From Candidatus Woesearchaeota archaeon (GTDB lineage: Archaea > Nanobdellota > Nanobdellia > Woesearchaeales > B72-G16), in contig QMQO01000007.1 of NCBI GenBank assembly GCA_003650545.1, forward strand, positions 1 to 41,573: 41,573 nt of DNA, given 5' to 3'. Numbering within the stretch: the first letter of the stretch is position 1; every line of letters begins with the position of its first letter. The notes under the pieces were generated by a model that saw only the letters and a program-made list of their open reading frames with translations, had not been told where the DNA came from and searched no databases. A program made the translations under genes and the position numbers. Shown in pieces: positions 7,391 to 35,178 of the stretch.

Positions 7391-7502
7391 AAAAAGGGGT
7401 TTATTGATTTGAATATTTATTAAACAAGAATAAATAGTTACAAGAATAATTAGAATTAATAATTAGAATTAGTTGAATAGTTAATTGAATGGAAATTTAA
7501 AA

Positions 7503-10500
7503 ATGACCAAAAATGCTAAGCTAAAGGTTGCAGAAGCAATCCAAGATGATGTAAATAAAGGCATAGTCAGGATAGATAGTAAATTGATGACAGACATGGG
7601 GATTAGGCCAGGTGATATTGTTGAGATTAAAGGTGAAAGAAGTACTGTTGCTATTGCTGATAGAAGCTATCCTGGCGACATTGGTCTGAATATCATTAGG
7701 ATGGATGGTATAATTAGAAGAAATGCAAAAACAGCTATTGGCGAATATATTTTTATTAATAAAGCAGATGTTAAAGAAGCTAAAAAGGTTGTGATTGCGC
7801 CACAGCGCAAGGGCGTTATTGTTAGAGCTTCTCCTGGAATATTTAAGCAGGGTTTGCTTGGAAGGGCAGTTGTTAAAGGCGATATTGTTTCGTTAGGTGG
7901 AACCTATCGCAGAAGGAATACTCTTAGTAGCTCACCTTTCTTTGATGATATCTTTAATGTACTTGAAGAAAATACGTTGAGATTTGGTTTTGGTGATCTT
8001 AAGTTTGTTGTAGCTGATACAAAGCCTGGGCAGGCTGTTATAATAACTGACTTAACTGAGGTTGTTTTTAACCCTGAAGCAATAGAAATTAAAGACGAAA
8101 AGATTTTAGAAGTAACGTATGAAGACATTGGTGGCCTTGATTCAGAGATCACAAAAATTAGAGAGATGGTTGAGCTGCCACTTAAACACCCTGAGATTTT
8201 TGAACGCCTAGGGATAGAGCCACCCAAAGGAGTTCTATTACATGGTGCGCCAGGTACAGGTAAAACTCTTCTGGCAAAAGCAGTTGCAAACGAAACCAAT
8301 AGTAATTTTCTTCTGATTAATGGTCCTGAAATTATGTGTGTTAGCGGGGATACACCTATCTTTACTAATCCGAACGGCTATATAAAAGCCGAGAAGATTT
8401 TTGAAGAAAATGGAAAAGAAGAGACTGTTAAAAATTATATTGTGAAGAAGCTAGATAAACCAATTTCCACATACGCATTTGAAAATGGTAAAATTAAAAA
8501 AGCACACATAACTCATGTTACAAAACTTAAATCAGATGCCTATGAAGTAAAATTGAGCGATGGTAATGATATACTTGTTTCTGAAAATCAGCCATTTTTA
8601 GTTTATAGAAACTCTGAATTAGTATGGGAACCTATAAAGAATATAAAAAAAGGTGATTTTGTTGCAAGATTAAATAAACTTAAATTACCTGAAAAAAGTT
8701 ATTCTATTCCTGTTAACGAACTCAAAAAGAAACTGAATCTTATAAAGAGAGGTTCAAAGTATGCAATAGAAAGCAGAAATATATCCAGAAGTAACTTTAT
8801 AAAGCTACCAAATAAAACTTCACCTGAACTATTGGAGATTATAGGCTTAGTTGTTTCCGACGGTAGTATAAGCAAAAAAGGCGATTCAATTGGTTTTTAT
8901 AATCAAAATGTAGATTTAATAGACAGATTCAGAACATTGATGCAGAAAGTATTCGGAATTGAAAATTTCAAAGAAAAAAATAAAGGAAAAAATCTAGGAA
9001 TTATCATATATTCTAAACTGTTGATAGAGTACTTTAAACTACTACAGTTCTCAGCAGAAAATAAAATAAAAATTCCTGCTTATTTCTTTAATCTGCCAGT
9101 TAATGAGATCAAATCATTTATCAGAGGCTATTTTGATGGCGATGGTGCTGTTGCAAAATTAAAAGTTAAAGATATAGAATATCCAACACCAATACTCTAC
9201 TCCAGAAATAAAGCGTTTCTATCTCAGTTACAGTCGTTGATGCTACTAAAGATGGGGATCAGCTCTAAACTTGGCGAGCATAAAACTCTTAAGGGGACGA
9301 GGTATAAGCTTGTTGTTAGAGGATATGATGGAAGACTAAAATTTTTGGGGGTTAAACCAATTAGCGAAGATAAGAAAAGAAGATTAAACGAAATAAATAA
9401 AGTAATTAGAACAAAAGAGCATGAAAATGTTCCACACCCATCAGTTCTTATACAGAGAATCAAGGAATTACCGTATAAAACATACCGAAATAAAGACTGG
9501 TATATTTATAAAACAGGGAACGCGACAAAATATTCTTTAAAATTATTATATGATTTAGCTCTGAAGAACGGCCTTATCACAAAAAATATACAAAAAGAGT
9601 TTGATATCCTGATGAGGGATGATATAGGCTGGGAAAAAGTAACACAGATAAACAAAAAAAGAGAGATGGATTTGTATGATTTCACAGTTGACCAAGATAG
9701 TTTTGTAGGCGGACCATATTTCTTGATGCATAATTCTAAGTTTTATGGCGAATCAGAAGCTAATCTAAGAAAAAAATTTGAAGAAGCCGAAAAAAATGCA
9801 CCAAGTATAATTTTTATTGACGAAATTGATGCTATCGCATCCAAAAGAGAAGAAAGTAGAGGAGAGGTTGAGAGAAGGGTTGTAGCACAGCTATTGGCGA
9901 TGATGGATGGTCTAAAATCACGAGGTAAAGTAGTTGTAATTGCTGCAACAAATATCCCTAATTCATTGGATCCTGCATTGAGGCGTCCTGGCAGATTTGA
10001 TCGCGAAATAGAAATCGGTGTGCCAGATGTTACAGGTAGATTAAATATCCTTAAGATTCACACTAGAAACATGCCACTTGCAAAAAATGTTAACCTAAAA
10101 GAACTAGCTAATATCACACATGGTTTTGTCGGGGCTGATCTAAGTGCATTGGCAAAAGAAGCTGCAATGATTGTTCTAAGAAGGGTATTGCCTGATCTAA
10201 AACTTAAAGAAGAAGACCCTATACCTGAAGAAGTTTTGAAAAAATTAATGATTACGCAGAAAGATTTTAAAGAGGCTCTGAAGGTTGTGAGGCCATCTGC
10301 CTTGAGAGAGATTCTTGTAGAAGCACCAAACGTCACATGGGATGATATCGGTGGAATGGAATCTGCAAAACAAGAACTTATTGAAGCGGTTGAATGGCCA
10401 TTAAAGCACCCTGATGCATTTAAACGTTTGGGTGTTAAGCCACCAAAAGGTGTGCTTATCTATGGTGCACCTGGAACAGGTAAAACTATGTTGGCGAAAG

Positions 10501-11174
10501 CAATCGCACATGAGAGCGAAGCTAATTTTATCTTAGTTAAAGGACCTGAATTGCTTTCTAAGTGGGTTGGTGAGAGTGAGAAAGCTGTTCGAGAAGTTTT
10601 CAAGAAAGCTAGACAAACTTCGCCTACAATCATTTTCTTTGACGAGATTGATAGCATTGCAAGCAAACGAGGTCTAGGAGAAGATAGCAGGGTGACAGAG
10701 CGTGTTGTGAATCAATTATTGACTGAGATGGACGGTTTAGAGGATTTACACGACGTTGTTATAATTGCAGCAACAAATAGACCTGATATGATTGACACAG
10801 CATTATTAAGGCCTGGTAGATTCGACAGAATCATACTAGCAAGTATTCCAGATGAAAAAACTAGAAAGGATATCTTTAAGGTCCATACAAAAGAGATGCC
10901 TTTAAAAAATGTTGATCTAGATGATCTCGCAAAACAAACTAAAGGGTATGTTGGAGCAGATATTGAAAGTGTGTGTCGCGAAGCAGCAATCCTAGCTTTA
11001 AGGGAAGACATAACCTCAAAAGCAATAGAGATGAGACATTTCAATAAAGCACTGGAAAAGGTTGCTCCTTCAGTAACTGAAGATGTTGAGAGCGCATATG
11101 AGGATTTACAAAAAGTTTTCAGGGCAGCACGTGGAAAAGAAATGAAAATAGAGAAACCTATATATATGGGTTAA
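7503..11174 (+). CDS. cdc48: Cdc48/VAT-type AAA+ ATPase with in-frame intein
   Basis: After removal of a 466-residue intein the host protein is 757 residues, the usual size of archaeal Cdc48 (p97), a hexameric unfoldase that feeds substrates to the proteasome. The N-terminal domain (about residues 1-195) is followed by D1 with Walker A GAPGTGKT and Walker [11 protein letters not shown], then D2 with GAPGTGKT and [10 protein letters not shown]. The RRPGRFDRE and LRPGRFDR arginine-finger segments are both present. The intein sits in D1 between Walker A and Walker B, inside GPEIM/SKFYGES. The ATG at 7503 matches the family's N-terminus; a TTG at 7485 would add six residues. There is a 110-nt leader after a strong promoter. 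Confidence 0.95.
8337..9734 (+). mobile_element. Intein with LAGLIDADG homing endonuclease in cdc48
   Basis: The insert begins at Cys (TGT 8337) and ends at His-Asn (9729-9734), with Ser as the first host residue after it. This restores GPEIMSKFYGES, the conserved Cdc48 pore-loop segment. Blocks: A is [10 protein letters not shown] should read TxxH but is SENQ; the endonuclease motifs are [10 protein letters not shown] and [13 protein letters not shown] is [10 protein letters not shown] with Asp where His is common; G is FLMHN. All splice-junction nucleophiles are present. The block B His is replaced by Gln, and inteins with this change are known to splice by altered routes. Confidence 0.93.
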
Positions 11175-18660: not shown

Positions 18661-19812
18661 TTATATTTCTATTTCCTTATACACTTTCTTGCCGTTGACT
18701 ATACTGAATTCTTTGTAAGCGTCTGAGGAAAGTACTGGATCGCCGTTTTTCTTGAACGTCCAGCTGGCTACTTGTCCTCTCCAGTCTTTTATGTTATTCA
18801 GGAAATAGTTCTTTACACATTCGCCATCTTCACCACAATTCTCCAACGCTTCTGCAAGCATATATGTTGCATCATACATTGCTGCAGTGTAAAAAAATTG
18901 AAAGCCTGGCTGTTTTCCATATTTATCAACATACTTCTGCAATAGCTTCTCATTCTCTACGAATGGAACAACTGTAAATGCATCTTCTGGAAGAGCATCT
19001 CCAATTGATTCGTATATCTTCATGTCAATTGCGGTTGGGTTCCCCATAACTTTAACATCCACTAATCCAAGTTCCTTCATCTGCTTTAGTATCAATGCTG
19101 TATCCTCTGGTGCCTGTCCTGAGAGAAAGACACCATCAACATCTGCTGATAAAATTTTTGTTATTATTCCTCTAAAGTCGGTTGTCCCTGTTGGGTATTC
19201 TTCTTTTAAAGCTACTTTACCACCTTCCTGAATCAGTCCCTTTGTGAACTCATCTGCCCAACTTTGTGCAAATTCAGTTTGCTCTTGGATTATTGCAACA
19301 TTGTTCACATTGTATTTCTTCTTTGCAACAAATCCTATCAAGGCTCCAGCGTCTGTGCTTGGAGGTGAAGTGCGAAATGCAAATTCAAAATCGTCGAATA
19401 ATCCTGCAGCTGTTGTTGTAGCTGCTAAGATAAAAACTTTATTTTCATTTGCAATAGGTGCTACTGGTGCTGAAGCAGGCGTACAACTTGGACCAAGAAT
19501 AACATTTATACCGTCTTGGTAGATCAGCTTGTTAGCCGCTGCAACTGCATCATTGCCAGAACACATATCGTCTTCTAGAATAAGTTCCAGCTGCTTCCCA
19601 TTGACACCGCCATTTGCATTTATCTCGTCTATAGCTAGCTTTACAAAGTTGGCTTCTGTTACACCACCTACAGCCCACTTTCCTGTCAAGGCAAACATCC
19701 CACCAATTTTGATAGTGTCATGTTGTGGTGTTGGTATCAAGATTACAATTAAAGCAATGACGACAACTGCTATAATTGCTGTGGTTATCCAAAATTTATT
19801 TTGTTTGTTCAT
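18661..19812 (-). CDS. livK: LivK-type binding protein 1
   Basis: This is an extracellular binding protein of the branched-chain amino acid or amide ABC type (periplasmic-binding type 1 fold). It has an N-terminal membrane helix (WITTAIIAVVVIALIVILI) with no lipobox, so it should be held by the helix. IGGMFALTGKWA, LAIDEINANGGVNG and the PIAPV-like APVAPIANENKVFI segment are family marks; DFRGIITKI begins the second lobe. I chose ATG 19812 because GAGGTGA lies 5 nt upstream (19818-19824); an in-frame GTG at 19821 would cover that site. It is divergent from trmB, its probable regulator. Confidence 0.9.
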   Translation of the reverse strand: MNKQNKFWITTAIIAVVVIALIVILIPTPQHDTIKIGGMFALTGKWAVGGVTEANFVKLAIDEINANGGVNGKQLELILEDDMCSGNDAVAAANKLIYQDGINVILGPSCTPASAPVAPIANENKVFILAATTTAAGLFDDFEFAFRTSPPSTDAGALIGFVAKKKYNVNNVAIIQEQTEFAQSWADEFTKGLIQEGGKVALKEEYPTGTTDFRGIITKILSADVDGVFLSGQAPEDTALILKQMKELGLVDVKVMGNPTAIDMKIYESIGDALPEDAFTVVPFVENEKLLQKYVDKYGKQPGFQFFYTAAMYDATYMLAEALENCGEDGECVKNYFLNNIKDWRGQVASWTFKKNGDPVLSSDAYKEFSIVNGKKVYKEIEI

Positions 19813-19906
19813 AACTTTCACCTCACGTTTTCTATAAGATTTTTTTATTTTTTTTAATATATTTGTTATCTGATAGTAGTAGTAAACTGTTTAATATATA
19901 TTTATG

Positions 19907-19943
19907 TTGTCAGATATTTACGACAAATAAAAAAATTTATAAA
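19907..19943 (+). promoter_or_regulatory. trmB promoter with TTGTC-N10-GACAA site
   Basis: TTTATAAA at 19936-19943 lies 22 nt before the ATG, so the trmB message is leaderless. TTGTC (19907-19911) and GACAA (19922-19926) form an inverted repeat just upstream, within the spacer shared with livK 1. It is a good candidate for TrmB binding. Confidence 0.45.
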
Positions 19944-19965
19944 TTCTGAAAAATTAAGGCTTAAA

Positions 19966-20694
19966 ATGGATAAATTTGGTGCTTTAGAAGAGTTCGGTCT
20001 TGAGCCAAGGGAAGCAAAAATCTATGTAAAGCTGCTAGAGTTAGGACAGGCTACTGCCTCTCAGCTAGCCAAAAGCCTAGAAATACTAAGGCCAACTGTG
20101 TATGATATTCTTGATAAGATGATACAGAAAGGCATTGTTAGTTATTCTATTAGCTCTGGTAGAAAGGTTTTTGCAGCTGTTGAGCCCGGGGTTTTAGAAC
20201 AATTATTAGAGAATAAAAAGAGAATCCTTGAAGAATTTATCCCTGAGCTCAAAAGTATCTCAAAAATAAGTAAGTTTAAACCCTTAGTTGAAACCTACAT
20301 TGGTGTGAAAGGCCTTAAAACAATATACGATGATATGTTGACTGTCAAAGAAGATATTTATCACATATTCAACTATGAAGAATATGTAAAGTTGTTCCAT
20401 TTATTCTTCATTAAAAATTTCATAAAAAAGAGAATTGAAAAAGGTATTTGGTTTAGAGCTATAGTGAATAAGATAAAAGAAAAAGAGCTTGAGAGGTCTG
20501 ACCCAAAATTGCTTAGAGAGATTAGAACTTTGCAGATGCTAGAAGATTTTAAGATGGCAATCGTTATTTATGGGAAAAAATCTGGATTCTTTACATTTAC
20601 AGAAACACCAATGGGGATTGTAATTGAGAACGAGTTGATCACTCATTCTTTTAAGGTTTTATTTAATTACTTGTGGCAAAGAGGAAAAGAGTAG
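19966..20694 (+). CDS. TrmB family transcriptional regulator
   Basis: The first 75 residues are the TrmB winged helix-turn-helix (LGLEPREAKIYVKLLELGQ-like EFGLEPREAKIYVKLLELGQ and ASQLAKSLEILRPTVYDILD). The rest, about 165 residues, is the effector-binding part that ends in FTFTETPMGIVIENELITH. TrmB proteins bind sugars or other ligands and control transport genes. Here it diverges from livK 1 and converges on livF, so control of amino-acid uptake is likely. The message appears to be leaderless. Confidence 0.87.
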   Translation: MDKFGALEEFGLEPREAKIYVKLLELGQATASQLAKSLEILRPTVYDILDKMIQKGIVSYSISSGRKVFAAVEPGVLEQLLENKKRILEEFIPELKSISKISKFKPLVETYIGVKGLKTIYDDMLTVKEDIYHIFNYEEYVKLFHLFFIKNFIKKRIEKGIWFRAIVNKIKEKELERSDPKLLREIRTLQMLEDFKMAIVIYGKKSGFFTFTETPMGIVIENELITHSFKVLFNYLWQRGKE

Positions 20695-20702
20695 CTACTT
20701 AG

Positions 20703-21404
20703 CTACTTTCCACCTAAGTATAACTTTTTAATTCTCTGATCTTCTAATAATTGTTTACCTCTACCAGAATATTTGTTTCTACAAATTTCCAGAACATAAG
20801 CCCTGTTAGAAATCTCTAGAGAACGTTTTGCATTCTGCTCAACCATAATTATAGTAACACCTGTTTTATTAATCTCGATTATCTTATCAAAGATCAAAGT
20901 CCTTACTTTTGGACTTAAGCCGAGTGTTGGCTCATCTAATAGAAGAACCCTTGGTTTTAACATCAATGCACGAGCAATGGCAGTCATCTGTTGTTCCCCA
21001 CCAGACAATAACCCTGCGCGAGTGTTTTTTAAATCCTTTAAATTTGGAAACATTGTATAAACCCTCTTAAAATCCTTCCAAGGATTGCCAGGTTTGATGA
21101 ATGCACCAATCTCTATGTTCTCATGAACTGTTAAGTCTGTAAAAACACTTCTACCTTGAGGTACATAAGTGATTCCTGCTTTTGCAATCTGCTGCGGTGT
21201 GTACTTTGTTATGTTTTTATTTTTATAGATAATTCTCCCTTTTTTCTTTATTAAGTTAAAAATAGATTTAAGTACTGTGGATTTGCCTGCTCCGTTTGGA
21301 CCTATTATACTAACAATCTCACCTGTGTTAAAATGCATATCAATATCGTGTAATACCTGTAACTTTCCGTACCAGGCATTTAGCTTGTCTATGCTTAATA
21401 TCAT
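20703..21404 (-). CDS. livF: Branched-chain amino acid ABC transporter ATPase LivF
   Basis: LivF is one of two cytoplasmic ATPases of the Liv transporter. Walker A GPNGAGKS, signature LSGGEQQ, Walker B VLLLDEPTLGLSP and the switch His region (MVEQNAKRSLEISNRAYVLE) are all present. It starts at ATG 21404, one base after the livG stop. The GGTGG codons at the end of livG serve as its ribosome binding site. An upstream start at 21425 would overlap livG. It is the last gene of the livHMGF operon. Confidence 0.93.
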   Translation of the reverse strand: MILSIDKLNAWYGKLQVLHDIDMHFNTGEIVSIIGPNGAGKSTVLKSIFNLIKKKGRIIYKNKNITKYTPQQIAKAGITYVPQGRSVFTDLTVHENIEIGAFIKPGNPWKDFKRVYTMFPNLKDLKNTRAGLLSGGEQQMTAIARALMLKPRVLLLDEPTLGLSPKVRTLIFDKIIEINKTGVTIIMVEQNAKRSLEISNRAYVLEICRNKYSGRGKQLLEDQRIKKLYLGGK

Positions 21405-21405
21405 T

Positions 21406-22149
21406 CTAACCACCAAGGTAAGCATCTAGTACCAGTTTGTTTTTTTGGATTTGTTTTGGTGTTCCATAAGCAATCTCTTTTCCGTGATCCATTGCTATCA
21501 CTTTATCACAAATTTTCATCACAAAATCCATATTATGCTCAATCAATAAAATTGTTTTTCCTGATTTACGCATGTTTTTAATTAAACCTGCTATTTTTTT
21601 TAGAAGGGTTAGATTCACGCCTGAAGCAGGCTCATCTAATAATAATAAGTCGGCATCTAGCGCTAGTACGCGAGCAATCTCCAATAGTTTCTGTTGACCA
21701 TAGCTTAGATTCTGTGCAAGTGCATTAACCTTTATGTCTAAGCCAACAAACTTCAATAGTTCCATTGCTTTCTCTATGTTTTCTTTCTGTTCCTTTGCTA
21801 CTACTCTAAACTGCAGGGCTGACGTGAATAAACTATCATTGCTAGGAATAGCTAATAACATGTTTTCTAATACTGTTAACTGGGGGAAAAGTCTTATGAT
21901 CTGAAATGTTCTACCAATGCCAAGCTGCGCTATCTTGTGTGGAGGCATATTTGTTATATTTTTTCTTCTGTAGATAATGTTTCCTCTATCAGGCTTAAGG
22001 AAGCCTGTTATTAGATTAAAAACTGTAGTCTTGCCTGCTCCATTTGGGCCGATAAGACCAACTATCGAACCTCTTTCTATTTCAAACTTACAGTTCTGTA
22101 CTGCTTTAACCCCGCCAAAGCTTTTTGATAAACCAACTACTTTTAGCAT
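21406..22149 (-). CDS. livG: Branched-chain amino acid ABC transporter ATPase LivG
   Basis: LivG is the second ATPase of the transporter. It shows GPNGAGKTT, the long LivG-specific insert after IGRTFQIIRLFPQLTVLENM, LSYGQQK and LLLLDEPASGVN with the IEHNMDFVMKICDKV switch region. The 247-residue length is normal. Its first 44 bases overlap the end of livM, so the two are translationally coupled. Confidence 0.94.
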   Translation of the reverse strand: MLKVVGLSKSFGGVKAVQNCKFEIERGSIVGLIGPNGAGKTTVFNLITGFLKPDRGNIIYRRKNITNMPPHKIAQLGIGRTFQIIRLFPQLTVLENMLLAIPSNDSLFTSALQFRVVAKEQKENIEKAMELLKFVGLDIKVNALAQNLSYGQQKLLEIARVLALDADLLLLDEPASGVNLTLLKKIAGLIKNMRKSGKTILLIEHNMDFVMKICDKVIAMDHGKEIAYGTPKQIQKNKLVLDAYLGG

Positions 22150-23023
22150 TTTTTTTTAACAATAATCTCCTTTCTCCTAAAATGCCATTTGGCTTAAATA
22201 ATAACATTGCAATTAATATACCCGAAAACAGCATCTGCCTTATTGCTGCTACAATCGAACTTGGTAAATATAGGAAGCGTAGTGGTTCGGGTAATATAAC
22301 AAGTATTGCTGCTCCTAAAAGGGCTCCTGGTACTGATGCAATTCCGCCAACGACTATCATTGAAAGCATTAGGATTAATTCTGTTAACGTGAATGAACTT
22401 GGATCTATGAATGTAATGTAATGCGCAAATAAGCTGCCTGCTATTCCAGCAAAACCTGCTCCAATAAGCATTGCATAACTTTTATACTTCATCACATTTT
22501 TCCCTAAAGCTTTTGCAGCTATCTCATCATCACGGATAGCACGCATGGTTCTGCCAAATGGCGAGTTAACAATTTTGCTGATGATCACATATGTGATAAT
22601 TAGCACAACTGCGGCTAGTACGAAGAATTCCCATGTTGATGCAAATTTGAATCCGAATAAACTAGCTTTAGGGATTCCCGGTAAACCAAGAGGACCTCTT
22701 GTAAGGCCTTGCCAGTTTTTCATGACAGCAATTATTATTTCGGCAAAACCAAACGTTACAATTGCAAGATAGATCCCCTTTAGTCTAGTAGCTGGTAGAC
22801 TTATTAAAAAGCCAAATATAGCTGCTATCAAAAATGCGCAGATAAATGATAGCCAAAATGGAACGCCTGTTAATGTTAGCAAGGCTGAAGTGTAAGCGCC
22901 TATACCAAAAAAGGCTGCATGGGTTAGATTAAAAATGCCGGCAAAACCAATTGTCAAGTTCAAGCTAATAGCAAGTATTCCGTAAATACAAATAAATACT
23001 AAAATATTGGCAAAGTAACTCAT
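22106..23023 (-). CDS. livM: Branched-chain amino acid ABC transporter permease LivM
   Basis: The protein has about eight to nine hydrophobic segments and the LivM marks: NLTIGFAGIFNLTHAAFFGIGAY near the start and GRTMRAIRDDEIAAKALGKNV, the cytoplasmic loop that meets the ATPase. GLPGIPK and SMIVVGGIASVPGALLGA follow. With LivH it forms the membrane channel. It shares ATGA with livH (4-nt overlap) and overlaps livG at its end. Confidence 0.93.
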   Translation of the reverse strand: MSYFANILVFICIYGILAISLNLTIGFAGIFNLTHAAFFGIGAYTSALLTLTGVPFWLSFICAFLIAAIFGFLISLPATRLKGIYLAIVTFGFAEIIIAVMKNWQGLTRGPLGLPGIPKASLFGFKFASTWEFFVLAAVVLIITYVIISKIVNSPFGRTMRAIRDDEIAAKALGKNVMKYKSYAMLIGAGFAGIAGSLFAHYITFIDPSSFTLTELILMLSMIVVGGIASVPGALLGAAILVILPEPLRFLYLPSSIVAAIRQMLFSGILIAMLLFKPNGILGERRLLLKKNAKSSWFIKKLWRG

Positions 23024-23904
23024 ATTCTTATTTCCTCTTCTGTTTTTCTTCCTAATAATCCTGTAGGTCTAAATATTAACATTAAAATTAAAATCCCAAA
23101 AGCAATAGCGTCCTTATAACCTGATGGGAGCCACGCTATGCCTATATTCTCAATTATGCCAATTGTAAAACCGCCCATGACCGCGCCTCTTATATTACCA
23201 AGGCCACCTACAACTGTGGCCACCAATGCCTTTATACCAATCATCACCCCCATCGTAGGTGTTAGATTTTGTTCAATCCCAACAAGAACGCCCCCTATAG
23301 CAGCAAGGCCAGCACCAATCGCAAATATATAACTAATTATTGTTTTGTTGTTGATTCCCATTATTAAGGCTACTTGATAGTTATTAGAAACAGCACGCAT
23401 AGCCTTTCCTGTTTTTGTATATTTTAAATATAGGAATAGAGCAATCATCAGTACAATAGAAACAGCTATTATCACTATTTGGATCTTTGTTATTATCATT
23501 CCACCAGGCAAACTTATCCCTGGTTGTATCTCCCCTGTTCTATATGTTTTAATTTGAGCACCAAAGATCATTAGTATTAAAGCTTGTAAAAATATAGAAA
23601 CACCAAACGATGCAATAATAGGCGGCATCAAGCCTTTTGTGTAAAGTTTTTGATAGACAAAACGTTCTATTAGGAAAGAGACACCTATTGTGATGATGAT
23701 GGACATTAAGATAGCTATTAATATGTTGACACCAAACACAATGTTGAAAACCCAACCAATGTAGGCGCCAATCATAAAGAGCTCACCATGTGCAAAATTA
23801 ATAAAGCGAAGAACTCCAAACACCAATGAATAACCTAGTGCTACTAAAGCGTAGATTCCCCCAGCAATGATTCCGTTTAATAGTAATTGGGGGATTATTG
23901 ACAT
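23020..23904 (-). CDS. livH: Branched-chain amino acid ABC transporter permease LivH
   Basis: A polytopic membrane protein with the LivH pattern: GIIAGGIYALVALGYSLVFG with FINFAHGELFMIGAY at the start, GKAMRAVSNNYQVALIMGI as the ATPase-coupling loop, and ALVATVVGGLGNIRGAVMGG near the end. It is the first gene of the livHMGF operon and shares ATGA with livM. TTTATAAA at 24018-24025 lies upstream, but it is 113 nt from the ATG, so the leader would be long. Confidence 0.93.
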   Translation of the reverse strand: MSIIPQLLLNGIIAGGIYALVALGYSLVFGVLRFINFAHGELFMIGAYIGWVFNIVFGVNILIAILMSIIITIGVSFLIERFVYQKLYTKGLMPPIIASFGVSIFLQALILMIFGAQIKTYRTGEIQPGISLPGGMIITKIQIVIIAVSIVLMIALFLYLKYTKTGKAMRAVSNNYQVALIMGINNKTIISYIFAIGAGLAAIGGVLVGIEQNLTPTMGVMIGIKALVATVVGGLGNIRGAVMGGFTIGIIENIGIAWLPSGYKDAIAFGILILMLIFRPTGLLGRKTEEEIRI

Positions 23905-24066
23905 TTTATGATTTCCTTTTTTACAATTTTCATCAGCAGGCCATACATGATAAAGTATTCAGAATAATATTCTGTTGTAGCAAGGATTTTCTTGATTCAA
24001 TGATAAATTAATAATAGTTTATAAATTTTAATGATTTTTATAAATTTTTTGTCTCTAGGGTAGAGC
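23905..24066 (-). promoter_or_regulatory. livH: Promoter region of the liv operon
   Basis: The minus strand has two TATA-like boxes, TTTATAAA at 24018-24025 and a second one near 24037-24046. No ribosome binding site of the GGTGAT type precedes livH. The rest is AT-rich with no gene. Confidence 0.4.
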
Positions 24067-24189
24067 CAACTTAAGTGAGAATGCCGCCAAGCGAGCACTC
24101 GCATTTTAAGCTGTCTTGAGCCAGCTAGCCAGATATATTCATTTTAACAGTGTACTGCGAGCGCGGCATTCTCACAGCATTAAAAGTTG
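24067..24189. repeat. GC-rich long stem-loop element upstream of the liv operon
   Basis: GTGAGAATGCCGC (24075-24087) is perfectly repeated in inverted form at 24163-24175. CAACTT (24067-24072) and AAGTTG (24184-24189) extend it, CTCGCA (24098-24103) pairs with TGCGAG (24156-24161), and CTGT/ACAG closes further in. The result is a rod of about 120 nt, much richer in GC than the flanks. It could be a small RNA, a strong terminator of the truncated livK transcript, or a miniature mobile element. There is no open frame. Nothing is seen in 24190-24267. Confidence 0.5.
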
Positions 24190-24267
24190 ACTTCGCCCTT
24201 TTTATGTTTCCTTGTTGAATCTGTTAAATCTTAGTACCTATCCAAGAGACTTATTAGTGTGCCTGGC

Positions 24268-24768
24268 CTATTCAACAAATATAAATTTTCCATTCTTAAC
24301 CATCTTTACTGCTGCAGGCACTTGGAAGATACCCTCAGGACCTGAAGAATACGAACCTAAGGCGCCACTAAACTCTTTTATATTCTCTAGTCCAACTCTG
24401 ATGCTGTCTCTATCTGGACCATACTTCTCTGCTGCTTCAACTATCAACATTATTGCATCATAAATGTTCCCTGTTGCCATACCGGGTTCTACATTATACT
24501 TTTCATGGTATGAGTCAGCAAAACTTCTGCACACATCTGCAGGAGCAACATACCACATTCCTTCCATCAGTTTCAGCGAGACTTCATCTGTCTCGAATTC
24601 TGGTGATTCTATTGACAGTATTTCTGCTCCTAGATCCAATTCCTTTGCCTGCTGAAGGAAGCTTTTCATCTCTCCAAATAAAAGCAAAACAAAGACACCA
24701 TTTATATCCTGATCCTTTAATTTTGCAATGTTTGTTCTGAAATCTTTCTGACCATCTCTTGTACTCTT
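24268..24768 (-). pseudogene. Truncated LivK-type binding protein (C-terminal half)
   Basis: The frame encodes only the second half of a LivK protein. Homology begins at KDFRTNIAKLK, the position where livK 1 to 3 have DFRxxxxKI, and runs through YDAIMLIVEAAEKYG to the normal C-terminus. An in-frame TGA at 24769-24771 closes it upstream, with no matching start, so about 200 N-terminal residues and the signal are missing. Its start is overlapped by the end of the hypothetical gene at 24717. This looks like a fourth binding protein destroyed by recombination with the neighbouring cassette. Confidence 0.75.
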
Positions 24769-25235
24769 TCATCGTCTATATTGGTTAGATGCTTAATTAA
24801 ATTATAAACATACTTTTGTGCAACGCTGGCTCTAATAAGATTGCCATTACTAAACTGGTTTACAAAAGTTTTAGCAACTAGACTATCGTTATACACAGTT
24901 GTAGCTATGATTTGTGAACCATGAGATCTTAATGCATCTAATGTAAACTCGTCTGTGAAGTATATCTCAAATGTTGGCGCTTTAAATGGATCACATGTTA
25001 GAATGATGTTTCTTTTTTCCGCTTCTTCCTGGATAGACTTTGTGATGATGTTCTCATAGAAATCTTGGTATTTGTGTCCCAGCATGAATTTTATCACATG
25101 CAATGGTGCTAATTTTTGTTTTTCTATTATCGACCCTTTTTTAATTTTAGCGATATGCTCGTGATAGATAGTTCTGACTGCATCAAACTCTAGCCTTAAT
25201 ATATCCTCTAGTTTTTCTCTAGCTGTCTTGCTCAT
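24717..25235 (-). CDS. Hypothetical protein paired with RHH protein
   Basis: I do not recognise this 172-residue protein. It is soluble, begins with charged helices (KTAREKLEDILRLEFDAVRTI) and has a mixed alpha/beta middle (TFEIYFTDEFTLDALRSHGSQIIATTV). Its first codons overlap the last 17 bases of the ribbon-helix-helix gene, so the two are a coupled pair, like many toxin-antitoxin or repressor operons. Its last 18 codons overlap the truncated livK in another frame, so the natural C-terminus may have been replaced. A toxin role is only a possibility. Confidence 0.6.
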   Translation of the reverse strand: MSKTAREKLEDILRLEFDAVRTIYHEHIAKIKKGSIIEKQKLAPLHVIKFMLGHKYQDFYENIITKSIQEEAEKRNIILTCDPFKAPTFEIYFTDEFTLDALRSHGSQIIATTVYNDSLVAKTFVNQFSNGNLIRASVAQKYVYNLIKHLTNIDDERVQEMVRKISEQTLQN

Positions 25236-25365
25236 TTTCTAACAATCTCTCAATTGCTGTTTCTATCAGGTGTGATTTATTTCTATAATAAGAGCTAGAT
25301 CTAAGTTTTCCCCTTATTTTAGCAATTGTTCCCTCATCTAAAGACACTGAAACAGGAAACTTCAT
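25219..25365 (-). CDS. Ribbon-helix-helix (CopG-like) DNA-binding protein
   Basis: This 48-residue protein is too short for most gene finders. It reads KFPVSVSLDEGTIAKIRGKL then a YRNKSHLIETAIERLLE helix, the beta strand plus two helices of the CopG/Arc fold that binds DNA as a dimer. The RNKSH turn is typical of archaeal members. It overlaps the start of the 172-residue partner by 17 nt. A perfect promoter (25389-25403) lies 24 nt upstream, so the message is leaderless. Such proteins often repress their own operon. Confidence 0.8.
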   Translation of the reverse strand: MKFPVSVSLDEGTIAKIRGKLRSSSYYRNKSHLIETAIERLLENEQDS

Positions 25366-25388
25366 AACTTATTAAGAACTATTAATAA

Positions 25389-25403
25389 TATATAAATCTT
25401 TCG
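25389..25403 (-). promoter_or_regulatory. Promoter of the RHH cassette
   Basis: On the minus strand CGAAAGA (BRE) is followed by TTTATATA. The ATG is 24 nt downstream, as expected for a leaderless archaeal gene. Confidence 0.65.
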
Positions 25404-25538
25404 TTACTAAATAGTGGTGTATTTTAGTGAATTTATCTTCTATAATGTTCTTTCTTCTAAAAAATGCTTTACTTTGTTCATTTTTAAGTATTCTTGTAAC
25501 AGCTTTGTTGTATGCAACTAAAAAATAAAGAAAAAAAA

Positions 25539-26678
25539 TTAAATTGTTATAATGTCTATAATCTCACTTTGGCCGCTTCTTATCTCTTTTATTGTCCAAG
25601 GAATTCCAATCACATCTCCATTGCTGTCAAAGGTGTATGTCCCAATAACACCATTGTATGGCTGCATTTTGTACAAGTAATCTTTTATACAACCACTGTT
25701 TTCGCCACATTCTCTCAATGCATCTGCAATTATATATACACTGTCGTATCGCGCGCCTGTATAAAAATCATTAGCCGGTGATGTGCCAAATCTTTGCTTG
25801 TATTTTGAAAGAAACTCTGCACCTTTTTCAGTCATCCCTATGTTTACAGCGTCAAAATATTTAGCTCCTTCCAAGGCGTCGCCTGCGATTTCCAGTGACT
25901 CCTTACTTCCTATAAGCAGATTTCCATAAACCTTTATATCTTCCATACCTAGTTCAACCATCTGTTTGGCTATCTCGCCTGCGCTGCTTGTAGAGGTTCC
26001 AGGATTTATGAAAATTGCTTCTGGTCGCGCGTTTTTAATCTTTAACAAATATGTTCTAAAATCTGTTTCGTCCGAATCGTAAACCAGATCAGCTACAATA
26101 GCCTTTCCCTGGTTTTGTAATTCTTCTTTAAGGGTATGCTGAATTCCCATAGCATATTCTGTGTTTTCTGATATCAATGCTATTCTATCTTCTTCTATCA
26201 TTTTAGCCCCAATCCTGCCACCTTCCAGATCAGAAGCTGCATTCCTAAATACATAGTCGCCAGCATTTGATACATCTGGTGCTGTAGCTATTGTGAAAGT
26301 AATCACTTTATTTTGTTCTGCTATAGGTGCAAAAGCTAGTGTTTCAGCTGAACAGACGCCACCTAGGATTATTTTGACATTATCTAGAGTGATCAACTTA
26401 CTTGCTGCATTTACAGCATCCTTGCCATTGCATTTACCATCTTCATGAATCACTTGTAATAATCTTCCATTAATCCCGCCAGCATTGTTGATCTCTTCAA
26501 CTGCAAGTTCTATCGCATTTCTATCGGATTCTCCCCACGATGCTCCACCACCAGTTAGTGGACCAATGGCACCTATTTTAATTGTGCCCTTTTCCTTTGC
26601 ACAGCCGGTTATCAATAGAGCTGCTAACATTATAGCTATCAAAGATAGCATGGTGATTTTGTTCATTTTTCTTTTCAT
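25539..26678 (-). CDS. livK: LivK-type binding protein 2 (lipoprotein)
   Basis: A signal peptide ends in the lipobox ITGC, so this receptor is lipid-anchored. The mature part has KIGAIGPLTGGGASWGE, ELAVEEINNAGGINGR, APIAEQNKVITF and DFRTYLLKIKNARPEAIFI, the marks of the LivK family. The paired cysteines near the end (CGENSGC) also occur in livK 1 (CGEDGEC), which suggests a common disulfide. GGGGTTGAT precedes the ATG. It is divergent from the tandem Lrp regulator at 26810. Confidence 0.9.
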   Translation of the reverse strand: MKRKMNKITMLSLIAIMLAALLITGCAKEKGTIKIGAIGPLTGGGASWGESDRNAIELAVEEINNAGGINGRLLQVIHEDGKCNGKDAVNAASKLITLDNVKIILGGVCSAETLAFAPIAEQNKVITFTIATAPDVSNAGDYVFRNAASDLEGGRIGAKMIEEDRIALISENTEYAMGIQHTLKEELQNQGKAIVADLVYDSDETDFRTYLLKIKNARPEAIFINPGTSTSSAGEIAKQMVELGMEDIKVYGNLLIGSKESLEIAGDALEGAKYFDAVNIGMTEKGAEFLSKYKQRFGTSPANDFYTGARYDSVYIIADALRECGENSGCIKDYLYKMQPYNGVIGTYTFDSNGDVIGIPWTIKEIRSGQSEIIDIITI

Positions 26679-26770
26679 TTTATCAACCCCTTAAATTGTT
26701 AATTATTGTCAATTACTAGTTGTAACAGATACTTATTAATAAAATTTTTTAACAATTTTTCCACAAAAAA

Positions 26771-26787
26771 GCGAAATCTTTATAAAA
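26771..26787 (+). promoter_or_regulatory. Promoter of the first tandem Lrp regulator
   Basis: GCGAAAT (BRE) and CTTTATAAAA (TATA) lie 22-38 nt before the ATG at 26810, which implies a leaderless transcript. Confidence 0.6.
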
Positions 26788-26809
26788 TATTGGATTAAAA
26801 TGGGCTTAA

Positions 26810-27763
26810 ATGAAGAATTTAGACTTGGTTGACAGAAAAATACTATATGAATTAGACTGCAACTCTAGATTGCCGAATAGTAGAATTGCAAAAAATGTCG
26901 GTGTTTCCAGGGATGTTGTTAATTACAGAATTAAAAGAATGGAGGAAAAAGGGTATATCAAGGGGTATGTGCCTATCATAGATTTTGTCAAGCTAGGTAA
27001 CCTAAATATTAGAATCTTCCTTAATCTGAAGAATACTAATCCAGAGAAAGAAAAGGAAATTGTTGAGTATTTTGTAAAAGAAAAAAATACATCACTTGTC
27101 GCAAAGACAGATGGACGATATGATGTAGGGGTTGCTTTTTGGGTTAGAGATGTTTATGTATTTAAGGATTTCTGGGACAACTTCATCCAGAAGTATAATT
27201 ATTTTCTAGGTGAGTATCGTTTAAGTATTTACACCAAACTTTATTATTTTAGGAGAGATTATCTGTTAGAAAAAAGAAAATATGGCAAGATCGTATCTAC
27301 AAGTATAGGTAAGGCTAGCTATGATAAGCTTGACTCTATTATACTAGCTAAGCTATCAGAGAATGCCAGAACACCAATCATAAAGATTGCGAGAGATATT
27401 AATGTGCCTGTAAAGACTGTTGCATATAGAATAAAACAGCTGGAAAAAAAGAAAATTATACTCGGTTATGGCGTTAACATTGATTTAGAAAAATTGAAAA
27501 TTATTTATTATAAGGTGCATATAAACCTTAACAAGATAGATGTTGCTCCTTTGAATGAATATGCAAAACGCCATCCCAATATTACTTTTATCGACGAAAC
27601 AATTGGTGGATGGGATTTTGAGATTGATTTAGAGGTTAATTCACACAAAGAATTTCTCGATATTATGGAAGATATGAAGACGAGATTTTCCCAGATAGAG
27701 GATTATGAGTATTTTACTTCTAGAGGTTTTGAGAAGTTCAAATTGTTTATCCCACAAGATTAA
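26810..27763 (+). CDS. Tandem Lrp/AsnC-type regulator 1
   Basis: Two Lrp units lie in one chain. The first helix-turn-helix is at about residues 4-50 (DRKILYELDCNSRLPNSRIA and VSRDVVNYRIKRMEEKGYI) with a ligand-type domain after it. The second starts near residue 175 (LDSIILAKLSENARTPIIKI and VPVKTVAYRIKQLEKKKII) with another ligand domain. Single Lrp proteins are about 150 residues, so this is a fused pair that should mimic an Lrp dimer. It sits between livK 2 (divergent) and livK 3 (convergent, 4-nt overlap at its end). Control of amino-acid uptake is inferred. Confidence 0.87.
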   Translation: MKNLDLVDRKILYELDCNSRLPNSRIAKNVGVSRDVVNYRIKRMEEKGYIKGYVPIIDFVKLGNLNIRIFLNLKNTNPEKEKEIVEYFVKEKNTSLVAKTDGRYDVGVAFWVRDVYVFKDFWDNFIQKYNYFLGEYRLSIYTKLYYFRRDYLLEKRKYGKIVSTSIGKASYDKLDSIILAKLSENARTPIIKIARDINVPVKTVAYRIKQLEKKKIILGYGVNIDLEKLKIIYYKVHINLNKIDVAPLNEYAKRHPNITFIDETIGGWDFEIDLEVNSHKEFLDIMEDMKTRFSQIEDYEYFTSRGFEKFKLFIPQD

Positions 27764-28878
27764 ATCTCGATCTCTACAAAGTTTCCATTTTTTACTTTAA
27801 ATATACTAAATGGCTTATCCTTTACTTCACCAGACTCATCGAAACTAACAACGCCTGTCGCACCTAGATAACGAATATTGTAAAGCTCTGACTTAATCGT
27901 TTCAACATCAAAACTTCCAGCCTTTTCAATTGCCTTTGCTAAAACCATCACTCCATCATAACTGTATTCGCTATATACAGGGACTTCTTTACCTGTTTTT
28001 TGTACAAATCTGTCTTTATAATTCACGTAGTCCTCTGCTTTTGCATAATATACTGAGAGCATACCCTCAGCAGCACTACCTGCTTTCTGTATAAGATCTG
28101 CATCCTTTGTTGTTTCTGAACCAATTATTGTTAGATTTATATTTAGTTCCTTCATCTGCTTTAATATTGTTGGCAGTTCCTTTCTTGCAACTAAAATCAT
28201 TACTTCAGGATCAGCATCTTTGATCTTAATGAGCTGAGTTCTAAAATCAGCAGATTCATGCTCAAATGATTCTGATGCTACTATCCTACCACTGAAATCT
28301 TCCTCAAACTTATTCTTGATACCAACACCATAAGCGTCATTAACATAAAATAAAGCAACATTATCTAGGCCTAAACTCGCGACGATTCTCGCCATCTCTT
28401 TTGCCTGAGCAGAATCTGATGGTACTGTTCTAAATACATAGTCGCCTGCTTCATTTAATTCTGGTGTTGAGCCAAGCGTCCCTATCATCAAGACTTTGTT
28501 TGCTTCTGCTATAGGTGCAACGGCTAATGTAGGACCACTTCCATCTGCAACTATAACTACATCAAAATCATCAACAGATACAAATTTATTCATGATGCTA
28601 ACAGCTCTTTTATTGTCCAGCATAGAGTCCTCATAGACAAGTTCGATTTTTTTGCCCAAAACACCGCCTTTAATATTCAATTCTTCTACTGCAAAATCAA
28701 GGCCGGCTTTTGCAGCTAGTCCATAGGTGGCTGCTTCTCCTGTCAGAGGTGCAATAACGCCTATTTTATAGGTTGTTGCTTCTACTTTACTTATTATATT
28801 AATGCTGATAACTAGCCCAACTATAATAAATGTGATAATAATAGCACTTATTGTAAATACTTTGTTTTGTTTTTTCAT
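27760..28878 (-). CDS. livK: LivK-type binding protein 3
   Basis: This receptor has an N-terminal helix (VFTISAIIITFIIVGLVIS) without a lipobox cysteine, so it should be helix-anchored. YKIGVIAPLTGEAATYGLAA, VAPIAEANKVLMI and DFRTQLIKIKDADPEVMIL are LivK signatures. It lacks the C-terminal cysteine pair of the other two. I chose ATG 28878, four bases after the small gene upstream; an open frame to 28944 would overlap that gene. It is co-transcribed with the 59-residue protein. Confidence 0.88.
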   Translation of the reverse strand: MKKQNKVFTISAIIITFIIVGLVISINIISKVEATTYKIGVIAPLTGEAATYGLAAKAGLDFAVEELNIKGGVLGKKIELVYEDSMLDNKRAVSIMNKFVSVDDFDVVIVADGSGPTLAVAPIAEANKVLMIGTLGSTPELNEAGDYVFRTVPSDSAQAKEMARIVASLGLDNVALFYVNDAYGVGIKNKFEEDFSGRIVASESFEHESADFRTQLIKIKDADPEVMILVARKELPTILKQMKELNINLTIIGSETTKDADLIQKAGSAAEGMLSVYYAKAEDYVNYKDRFVQKTGKEVPVYSEYSYDGVMVLAKAIEKAGSFDVETIKSELYNIRYLGATGVVSFDESGEVKDKPFSIFKVKNGNFVEIEI

Positions 28879-28882
28879 TTTA

Positions 28883-29062
28883 TCATCTGTCTCCAAAAAC
28901 TTTAGTAAAATAGTCGCATCCATCATCACCTGGGTGGCAACCATACATATTATTTACATATTCAACTGGATTTGGATATTCTAACATCCTCTTTTTAAAT
29001 TCTAACACCATTTCATCTAATCTTTTTTCTGGTGCAGGAGCTTCCAATAAACCATTTTTCAT
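28883..29062 (-). CDS. Small protein (59 aa) upstream of livK 3
   Basis: This open frame has a perfect GGTGATC ribosome binding site (within 29065-29072) at normal distance from its ATG. It ends 4 nt before livK 3, so the two share a message. The sequence KRLDEMVLEFKKRMLEYPNP is a charged helix, followed by a Cys-containing end (MYGCHPGDDGCDYF) with a CHPGDDGC spacing. I know no family. It might be a small partner of the binding protein or a leader peptide. Confidence 0.65.
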   Translation of the reverse strand: MKNGLLEAPAPEKRLDEMVLEFKKRMLEYPNPVEYVNNMYGCHPGDDGCDYFTKVFGDR

Positions 29063-33636: not shown

Positions 33637-34051
33637 AAAAAGATAAGGTCACTGATTTCGTACATATACTATATAACGACTCTCTATCTTTACTACAACA
33701 ATTAGTTTAGATATCCAGAAGGATTTTTTTGGTGAAAAGTCTCATATTGAAATCAAATGTGCATCTCGTGTCTCGTGTGTCTAAGATAAATCAAATTATG
33801 TATTAAAAGAAAGATTCTTCTGATCGAAACTGAAAAGTCTCAGAGTACTTACTTCAAACATATAATATAACTTTGTTGTTTTAGTGATCAATCATTTTTT
33901 AGGGTTAAGTCGTGTTTGATAGTTAAACTGCCATGACTTTCATCAGCCACTCAATCACCAAAAGTAACTGGAGCGGGATATTAGCACACTTAAGTCAACA
34001 GTACACTTTTTTAGTTAAATTTTTAAATTGGGATTAATCTTTTCTAATCAT
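33637..34051. other. Gene-free spacer before the tRNA gene
   Basis: No gene is visible in either strand. TGAAAAGTCTCA is repeated directly (33733-33744 and 33831-33842), and TCTCGTG occurs twice in tandem near 33766. Short open frames on the minus strand near 33930-34000 have no homology that I can see. The AT-rich stretch at 34010-34035 may hold the tRNA promoter. Confidence 0.4.
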
Positions 34052-34071
34052 GGGCCCGTAGCCTAGCCTGG

Positions 34072-34084
34072 ATAGATAAGGTAA
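34072..34084 (+). other. tRNA intron 1 (13 nt, position 19/20)
   Basis: Central helix GCCU (34066-34069) pairs with AGGU (34079-34082). The 3-nt bulges are GG/A (34070-34072) and AA/A (34083-34085), cut after the second base of each. The outer helix CCUA (34062-34065) pairs with UAGG (34086-34089). The intron side closes as a 6-nt loop. Confidence 0.75.
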
Positions 34085-34094
34085 ATAGGGCGAC

Positions 34095-34112
34095 AGGACT
34101 TAGTCCCGCTAA
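34095..34112 (+). other. tRNA intron 2 (18 nt, position 28/29)
   Basis: Central helix GGCG (34089-34092) pairs with CGCU (34107-34110). The bulges are AC/A (34093-34095) and AA/A (34111-34113). The inner helix GGAC (34096-34099) pairs with GUCC (34103-34106) over a UUA loop. Removal restores the anticodon stem ACAGC/GCUGU. Confidence 0.78.
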
Positions 34113-34121
34113 AGCCTCCTA

Positions 34122-34132
34122 CTCTAGGTGAA
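34122..34132 (+). other. tRNA intron 3 (11 nt, canonical position 37/38)
   Basis: The bases C32-C35 pair with GGUG (34127-34130) with one U-U mismatch. The bulges are UA/C (34120-34122) and AA/A (34131-34133), next to the anticodon stem. CCUA/UAGG (34118-34121 with 34125-34128) is an alternative pairing. Removal leaves loop CUCCUAA. Confidence 0.75.
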
Positions 34133-34154
34133 AGCTGTAGATCGAGGGTTCGAA

Positions 34155-34194
34155 TAGAAGAAACTAAAAAATATCTTGTTTCTTTCAACGAAAA
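34155..34194 (+). other. tRNA intron 4 (40 nt, T-loop position 59/60)
   Basis: UUCG (34149-34152) pairs with CGAA (34189-34192), the bulges are AA/U (34153-34155) and AA/U (34193-34195), and the outer helix is the T stem GAGGG/CCCUC. An inner hairpin AAGAAAC/GUUUCUU (34158-34164 with 34178-34184) completes a full bulge-helix-bulge fold. Confidence 0.85.
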
Positions 34195-34218
34195 TCCCTC
34201 CGGGCCCGTTTAATTAAA

Positions 34219-35178
34219 ATGTACAAAATCAAACAACTTCCTGAAGATTTCATTGTAAAAGAGATAAACAACATAACAGTAAAAGATAAAGGCAGATATT
34301 CCTACTGGTTATTAAAGAAAAAGAATCACAACACAATAAGTGCTATACATATTATAGCGAATGCTATAGGAAAACCGCTAAATACTATAGGATATGCAGG
34401 CAATAAAGACAAAAACGCGGTGACAGAACAGATCATTTCTATTAAGAATGTTAACAAGAAGAGAGTTGAGTCTACTCAGTTAAGAAATATTAGTCTTAAA
34501 TTTTTAGGAGTTGGTGATGAACCAGTTGTGATTGGTATGCTTGAAGGTAATTACTTTGAGATTGTTGTTAGAAATATTGAATCAAAACCTTTTATAAAAA
34601 AAGAGTTTATCAACCTTTTTGGTGAACAACGTTTTAGTAAGAAGAACGTTGATATAGGTAAAGCTATAGTGCATGGTTGTTTTGACAAAGCAGCTAAGTT
34701 AATTGCTGAAACAGATAGAGAGTATGGTGCAAAAAAGTTTTATAATGCTAATAAGAATAATCCTATTGCAATGATACGTTTGTTACCTAAAAGCCTAATA
34801 AAGCTTTATGTGCATGCTTATCAATCAAAAATGTGGAATGATATTGCAATAGAGTATATTAAAAATAAAAAAAGAAAAAATTGTAAAATTCCAATTATTG
34901 GTTTTGGAACTAACATCAATAATTATAATAAAGATATTCGAAATATTGTTTTAAAAATAATTAAAAAAGAAAACATAAGTAAAGAAAATTTTATAATAAG
35001 GCAGCTCCCAGAAATTAGTTCTGAAGGTGGAGAGCGTGACCTTTTTGTAAAAGTAAATATAGAAGCAAGCAGACTTGAACATGACGAGATAAATAAAGGA
35101 AAGAAAAAGATTTTTCTTAAGTTTTCATTGCCAAAAGGTAGTTATGCAACTGAGATTATTAGACAGATATTTATTTGA
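34219..35178 (+). CDS. truD: tRNA pseudouridine(13) synthase TruD
   Basis: TruD (Pus7 family) converts U13 of some tRNAs to pseudouridine. GYAGNKDKNAVTEQ holds the catalytic Asp64, YFEIVVRNIE-like GNYFEIVVRN follows, NLFGEQRFSKKN is the family's strand-helix, and VHAYQSKMWNDIA is the conserved end motif. At 319 residues it is shorter than most archaeal members, mainly in the insertion domain. It lies 11 nt after the tRNA-Arg gene, so both may be on one transcript. That tRNA has U at position 13, a possible target. Confidence 0.92.
   Translation: MYKIKQLPEDFIVKEINNITVKDKGRYSYWLLKKKNHNTISAIHIIANAIGKPLNTIGYAGNKDKNAVTEQIISIKNVNKKRVESTQLRNISLKFLGVGDEPVVIGMLEGNYFEIVVRNIESKPFIKKEFINLFGEQRFSKKNVDIGKAIVHGCFDKAAKLIAETDREYGAKKFYNANKNNPIAMIRLLPKSLIKLYVHAYQSKMWNDIAIEYIKNKKRKNCKIPIIGFGTNINNYNKDIRNIVLKIIKKENISKENFIIRQLPEISSEGGERDLFVKVNIEASRLEHDEINKGKKKIFLKFSLPKGSYATEIIRQIFI

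Follow-up and report, generated by a model that had tools for sequence, protein, structure and literature searches.

The window, by which we mean the whole 41,573-nucleotide stretch of DNA that was analyzed, contains a tRNA-Arg(CCU) gene at 34052-34208 on the plus strand, with five exons and four introns in a precursor of 157 nt. Neither ARAGORN nor Rfam scans of the window reported a tRNA at these positions. The gene and the features beside it are as follows.

34020-34029 (+): A/T-rich, TATA-like stretch TTTTTAAATT, seen by eye 23-32 nt upstream of tRNA-Arg(CCU)
34052-34071 (+): exon 1, 20 nt, tRNA positions 1-19, 5' strand of the acceptor stem and start of the D-arm; conserved in orthologues
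34072-34084 (+): intron 1, 13 nt, at 19/20, D-loop
34085-34094 (+): exon 2, 10 nt, positions 20-28
34095-34112 (+): intron 2, 18 nt, at 28/29, anticodon stem
34113-34121 (+): exon 3, 9 nt, positions 29-37, with the anticodon CCU at 34118-34120
34122-34132 (+): intron 3, 11 nt, at 37/38
34133-34154 (+): exon 4, 22 nt, positions 38-59
34155-34194 (+): intron 4, 40 nt, at 59/60, T-loop
34195-34208 (+): exon 5, 14 nt, positions 60-73
34219-35178 (+): truD, tRNA pseudouridine synthase D (Pfam PF01142), 10 nt downstream of tRNA-Arg(CCU)

A sequence-only reading of this DNA had proposed introns of these lengths at these four sites, and both the spliced alignment and the orthologues confirm them; the shortest exons are, as it had stated, 9 and 10 nt. 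It had also claimed that splicing would be exact, with no base in surplus or missing. This agrees with our results: the spliced product matches intronless orthologues, and all of the exon bases are kept. The predicted product is 75 nt (GGGCCCGTAGCCTAGCCTGGATAGGGCGACAGCCTCCTAAGCTGTAGATCGAGGGTTCGAATCCCTCCGGGCCCG); in segments, the spliced exons read GGGCCCG TA GCCT AGCCTGGATA GGGC G ACAGC CTCCTAA GCTGT AGATC GAGGG TTCGAAT CCCTC CGGGCCC G. All 21 of the cloverleaf's stem pairs are present. An unconstrained minimum free energy fold of the spliced RNA forms the acceptor, anticodon, and T stems, with an alternative helix in the D region. When an independent intronless orthologue (L039) was used as the template, the spliced alignment of the gene scored 98.8, as compared to a maximum of 45.8 for 2,000 shuffles of the gene and 41.3 for 1,646 tiles from the rest of the window. 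The intron boundaries can be moved by 1-3 nt without altering the product; we prefer those listed above because the bulge-helix-bulge (BHB) rule and the orthologues select them.

The TATA-like stretch is a candidate archaeal promoter. Neither a sigma-70-type site nor an intrinsic terminator was found around the gene. The TATA-like stretch and the 10-nt gap to truD suggest that the tRNA may have its own promoter or may be transcribed jointly with truD.

Elsewhere in the window, 7485-11174 (+) encodes a CDC48-type AAA ATPase of 1229 amino acids with an intein, comprising Intein_splicing and LAGLIDADG domains, in its first AAA domain. The region at 18661-28944 contains genes for a branched-chain amino-acid-type ABC transporter, several periplasmic binding proteins, and Lrp-like regulators. 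DPANN archaea are often thought to be auxotrophic and reduced, and such a transporter set is unusual for a host of this kind.

Pairing at the intron boundaries

The rule that we tested places a 4-bp helix (H) between exon bases -6 to -3, counted from the 5' cut, and intron bases -6 to -3, counted from the 3' cut; the cut falls after the two unpaired exon bases next to this helix. The helices at the four sites, all on the plus strand, are as follows.

Intron 1, helix H: exon 34066-34069 (GCCU) with intron 34079-34082 (AGGU), 4/4 pairs
Intron 1, helix h: 34062-34065 (CCUA) with 34086-34089 (UAGG)
Intron 2, helix H: 34089-34092 (GGCG) with 34107-34110 (CGCU), 4/4 pairs
Intron 2, helix h': 34096-34099 (GGAC) with 34103-34106 (GUCC)
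Intron 3, helix H: 34116-34119 (CUCC) with 34127-34130 (GGUG), 3/4 pairs, with a U33-U mismatch
Intron 4, helix h: 34144-34148 (GAGGG) with 34196-34200 (CCCUC)
Intron 4, helix H: 34149-34152 (UUCG) with 34189-34192 (CGAA), 4/4 pairs

The claim of a 4-bp central helix at every site thus stands for introns 1, 2, and 4 but not for intron 3. Similarly, of the two 3-nt bulges that had been described at each site, the 3' one does have 3 nt throughout (aa, the cut, then N), but the strict form is absent everywhere. By both folding and hand reading, none of the four introns has the strict hBHBh' motif, with two 3-nt bulges and helices on both sides. Instead, all four fit the relaxed forms (hBH, HBh', and BHL types) that have been described (PMC6379350). 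In intron 1, the 5' site lies within a 9-nt loop (hBH or BHL). At intron 2, the 5' bulge is a clean 3 nt, and there is no helix h on the exon side (HBh'). For intron 3, helix h is the anticodon stem, which is whole only once intron 2 is gone, and the 5' site is in a loop (hBH or BHL). Intron 4 contains an 8-bp h', and its 5' cut is in a 4x3 internal loop.

Intron 3 is also the site where folding does not favor the expected helix. In a thermodynamic model, the pairing probability of its helix H was 0.00 in the full precursor and 0.00-0.08 over all combinations, because U36-A and A37-U pairs, as well as an alternative GCCU:AGGU pairing, compete with it. A cut near intron 3 that used the complete GCCU:AGGU helix would lose U36 and give an anticodon loop of 6 nt.

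More broadly, the rule describes the introns of these tRNAs well. Across 34 introns in 18 genes, the expected helix is paired at 123 of 136 positions; 24 introns have the complete helix and 31 have at least three pairs. A 36-intron version of this set, which contained L163 with a shifted boundary (the 34-intron set is without it), had 128 of 144 positions paired, versus 57 ± 5.5 in shuffled introns (maximum 76). When the register was slid by one base in the 36-intron version, the mean number of pairs dropped from 3.56 to 2.03 or 1.69 of 4.

The splicing endonuclease and RtcB

The sequence-only reading held that four such introns imply a splicing endonuclease of broad specificity, and it proposed a search for the type of enzyme. 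A PF01974 search of the genome detected one endonuclease gene:

G000:C6:38271-38531 (L015), at L015:1474-2004, minus strand of L015: splicing endonuclease with PF02778 and PF01974, 176 amino acids, alpha-only

The gene was found, then, but it is an alpha-only form, without the Crenarchaea-specific loop (CSL) or the second subunit that have been linked to broad specificity, and this architecture is reported to be narrow. The protein is a single unit with one N-terminal PF02778 domain and one C-terminal PF01974 domain; it aligns over its full length with the 171-residue alpha4 enzyme of Methanocaldococcus jannaschii (1a79), and it matches the alpha subunit of the Nanoarchaeum equitans heterotetramer (3iey_A, E = 5.5e-37). 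In the endonuclease alignment, the catalytic residues Y112, H122, and K152/K153 and the acidic residues D161, E163, and D165 are invariant. The acidic loop, VDDEGDVTYY, aligns with VDADGDIVYY of M. jannaschii and is probably the L10 assembly loop. The 176-aa protein has the features of the alpha4 type (a single domain pair, the catalytic Tyr/His/Lys, and an acidic assembly loop) and is not the fused three-unit protein with an ASL that defines the epsilon2 type. The CSL, an insertion of 10-11 residues between FGKPI and ENKIQLS in 3p1z_B and 2cv8_A, is absent, and it is likewise missing from the endonucleases of 29 relatives. Presumably, the alpha-only enzyme of these archaea is a homotetramer.

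Efficient removal of relaxed introns is attributed only to (alpha-beta)2 and epsilon2 enzymes (PMC6379350). Since the enzyme here appears to be alpha-only and lacks the CSL, the expectation of broad specificity is sharpened into a contradiction.

We considered whether a strongly diverged beta subunit or an accessory factor was missed, in which case the enzyme would be (alpha-beta)2-like rather than alpha-only. This is possible, but we think it rather unlikely. Broad specificity has been reported for (alpha-beta)2 and epsilon2 enzymes (PMC6379350, PMC12397907), and the similarity to the N. equitans alpha subunit is to a protein that works in a heterotetramer. Also, when we ran the alpha profile against the PDB as a control, the short beta subunit of Pyrobaculum was reached only at E = 0.58, so a very diverged beta could escape the search. 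However, the same profile detected the beta subunit of N. equitans at E = 1.2e-19, yet in none of 20 genomes from the order did it find a second endonuclease copy at E ≤ 10; among these were the single-contig genome G010 and the 99%-complete genome G004, which has a three-intron tRNA-Arg (L037). In the genome that the window comes from, neither PF01974 nor profile A1 identified a beta subunit gene at E ≤ 10. PF01974 had a match above the cut-off in 57 of 60 genomes of the order, almost all with just one gene, and the three acidic loop residues are invariant, both of which argue against a hidden partner.

On balance, we favor the view that archaea of this order use an alpha-only endonuclease, without the CSL, the ASL, or a beta subunit, to remove relaxed introns, with at least four in one tRNA and with sites in the D-loop, the anticodon stem and loop, and the T-loop. 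From the tRNA introns of this genome, we predict that the alpha-only enzyme has a specificity broader than the strict BHB motif. If this is true, the rule that ties broad specificity to (alpha-beta)2 and epsilon2 enzymes with special loops would no longer hold.

The genome also contains a gene for the RtcB ligase, on the minus strand at L200:500-3487 (G000:C10). The predicted protein has 995 amino acids, and an intein-like insertion interrupts its DINC-GVR motif precisely at the Cys that binds metal; therefore, tRNA ligation would depend on protein splicing.

Orthologues and other tRNA genes of the genome

We collected orthologues with truD protein searches, which covered 60 genomes of this order as well as named genomes of GTDB; nearly all of the best truD matches among the latter were labelled as Woesearchaeota or Nanoarchaeota. 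truD adjoins tRNA-Arg(CCU) in many of these relatives, mostly in divergent orientation, whereas the two genes are co-directional and 10 nt apart in the window. Intronless tRNA-Arg(CCU) genes lie next to truD in four cases (L021, L024, L029, and L039) and match the window's spliced sequence; L039 is identical to it from position 8 through the variable loop.

The roughly 33 non-duplicate orthologues contain zero to three introns each, mainly at the four sites of the window gene. Introns at 19/20 were found in eight relatives (L022, L023, L034, L037, L042, L113, L117, and L174), as were introns at 37/38 (L019, L037, L042, L043, L113, L117, L122, and L174) and at 59/60 (L022, L026, L037, L117, L122, L130, L142, and L174). 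The intron at 28/29 has a counterpart in L030/L134, with 15 nt and helix H of AGCG:CGCU. Three orthologues have three introns (L037, L117, and L174), and of the genes sampled only the window gene has four. L117 was a candidate for a second four-intron gene and was rejected: its two T-arm insertions are a single 36-nt intron. We ignored the apparent introns near the acceptor stem of L146, L147, L175, and L182, which look like alignment artefacts. The 11-nt intron, which had been described as exceptional, is less special than that, as L113, L117, and L176 have introns of 12 nt at the same site.

Our census of the other tRNA genes is partial and is based on RF00005 matches and DNA searches of an assembly that is 85% complete. 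Just six tRNAs scored above the Rfam cut-off in this 1.64-Mb genome, whereas the same kind of search gave 9-43 matches per genome across 39 members of the order. According to intron-aware fitting, the count is low because several of the tRNA genes are broken by introns. A tRNA-Arg(UCU) gene at G000:C4:39237-39358 (L107) has three introns, of 14, 20, and 14 nt, at 19/20, 37/38, and 59/60; their sequences are unrelated to those of the window gene, yet they fit the same pairing rule. Further disrupted tRNA genes are at L010 (G000:C12), L013 and L014 (G000:C1), and L011 (G000:C5): tRNA-Gly(UCC) fits three introns, at 37/38, 59/60, and the unusual site 53/54; tRNA-Leu(UAG) fits three; tRNA-Gly(GCC) fits two; and tRNA-Pro(UGG) fits one, at 59/60. 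tRNA-His also fits one intron. The template fits of L006, L008, L009, and L012 were ambiguous and we excluded them from the proven multi-intron genes. Low tRNA counts of this kind may mislead completeness estimates and codon-tRNA analyses of such archaea.

One further fragment, at G000:C88:172-229 (L012) on a 3.8-kb contig, corresponds to the 3' half of a second gene resembling tRNA-Arg(UCU), whose 5' part was not found. It could reflect a long intron, a split tRNA, or contamination.

Could the window gene be a decaying pseudogene, with insertions that are debris, while another tRNA decodes AGG? Under established decoding rules, tRNA-Arg(UCU) can read AGG by wobble, so the tRNA-Arg(CCU) gene need not be essential, and tRNA-Arg(UCU) is present. 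An intact copy could also be missing from an assembly of this completeness, although the search for a second intact tRNA-Arg(CCU), a check proposed with the original reading, found none. We nevertheless consider decay very improbable. No exon base has been lost, and the four insertions lie at the intron positions of the relatives and obey the pairing rule. Across 20 mature (spliced or intronless) sequences, 99.3% of the cloverleaf cells are standard pairs (30-46% in slid controls), and 14 of the 21 stem pairs are altered on both sides. The window gene keeps all 21 pairs even though its acceptor and T stems differ from those of its relatives by paired changes, and this conservation of pairing argues against a pseudogene.

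Slightly less probable still is a reading in which not all insertions are introns (for instance, one in which introns 2 and 3 are misdivided and the exons of the anticodon arm differ). The sliding boundaries, the weak fit of intron 3, and the GCCU:AGGU helix that competes at the same place would allow it, but the intronless L029 and L039, like the relatives with introns, have exactly the anticodon arm that splicing gives here (ACAGCCTCCTAAGCTGT), and the competing cut would leave the shortened anticodon loop.

Proposed processing and comparison with known systems

Very probably, then, the locus at 34052-34208 is functional: a tRNA-Arg(CCU) gene that is present in one copy in this Woesearchaeota-order archaeon and is interrupted by four introns of the archaeal BHB type. 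This proposal is based on the anatomy of the gene, the conservation of its product, the pairing at the cut sites, and the finding of a single gene each for the endonuclease and RtcB. We infer that the gene is transcribed and that its ends would be processed by RNase P and tRNase Z; that a single alpha-only endonuclease would cut each boundary at the 4-bp helix formed by the ends of the 5' exon and of the intron; and that RtcB would seal the exons. Intron 2 would probably be removed before intron 3, because intron 3 is framed by the anticodon stem, which becomes whole once intron 2 is gone, and intron 4 could be removed independently of the others. The imperfect central helix of intron 3 counts against this proposal, as does an enzyme architecture that is reported to be narrow (PMC6379350).

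Archaeal tRNA genes are stated to contain up to three introns (PMC8450103, PMC4390854, and PMC6379350, which include reviews and the main tRNA finder), and the intron count of this tRNA-Arg(CCU) gene exceeds that maximum by one. Against the stated maximum (PMC8450103, PMC6379350), it was fair to call four introns in a single DPANN tRNA exceptional. No four-intron tRNA appeared in the literature that we searched; the main text of a survey of Asgard archaea gives no maximum per gene (PMC11291895). Given the stated maximum and the rule about relaxed introns, two aspects would be new: four introns in one gene, and relaxed, non-canonical introns together with an apparently alpha-only enzyme that lacks the special loops, throughout this order. 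The question about the enzyme is of more interest than the record number of introns. In particular, the accepted view that tRNA introns diversified in co-evolution with special loops and subunits is directly testable on a protein of 176 aa and an RNA of 157 nt.

Among the closest parallels are multi-intron tRNA genes of the Thermoproteales, such as tRNA-Glu(UUC) of Pyrobaculum calidifontis and tRNA-Pro(UGG) of P. islandicum, which like the window gene have BHB-type introns at several positions; the D-loop, 37/38, and T-loop sites are shared (PMC4390854, PMC8450103). However, at most three introns per gene have been reported in the Thermoproteales, and their endonuclease is an (alpha-beta)2 enzyme with a CSL, whereas the gene described here has four and comes from a DPANN host whose enzyme is alpha-only and has no CSL. 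In the Asgard archaea Atabeyarchaeia and Freyarchaeia, 92-95% of tRNA genes have introns, which are often non-canonical, and over half of the tRNA genes have several, according to the main text of the survey (PMC11291895). Outside the archaea, tRNA-Ile(UAU) of the eukaryote Cyanidioschyzon merolae is likewise interrupted in its D-, anticodon, and T-arms (PMC9602550), but by three introns. Finally, the epsilon2 enzyme of Micrarchaeum (ARMAN-2) is also from an ultrasmall DPANN host and is reported to cut relaxed introns (PMC12397907), but it is a three-unit fusion with an ASL, while the enzyme here is a single unit of 176 amino acids.
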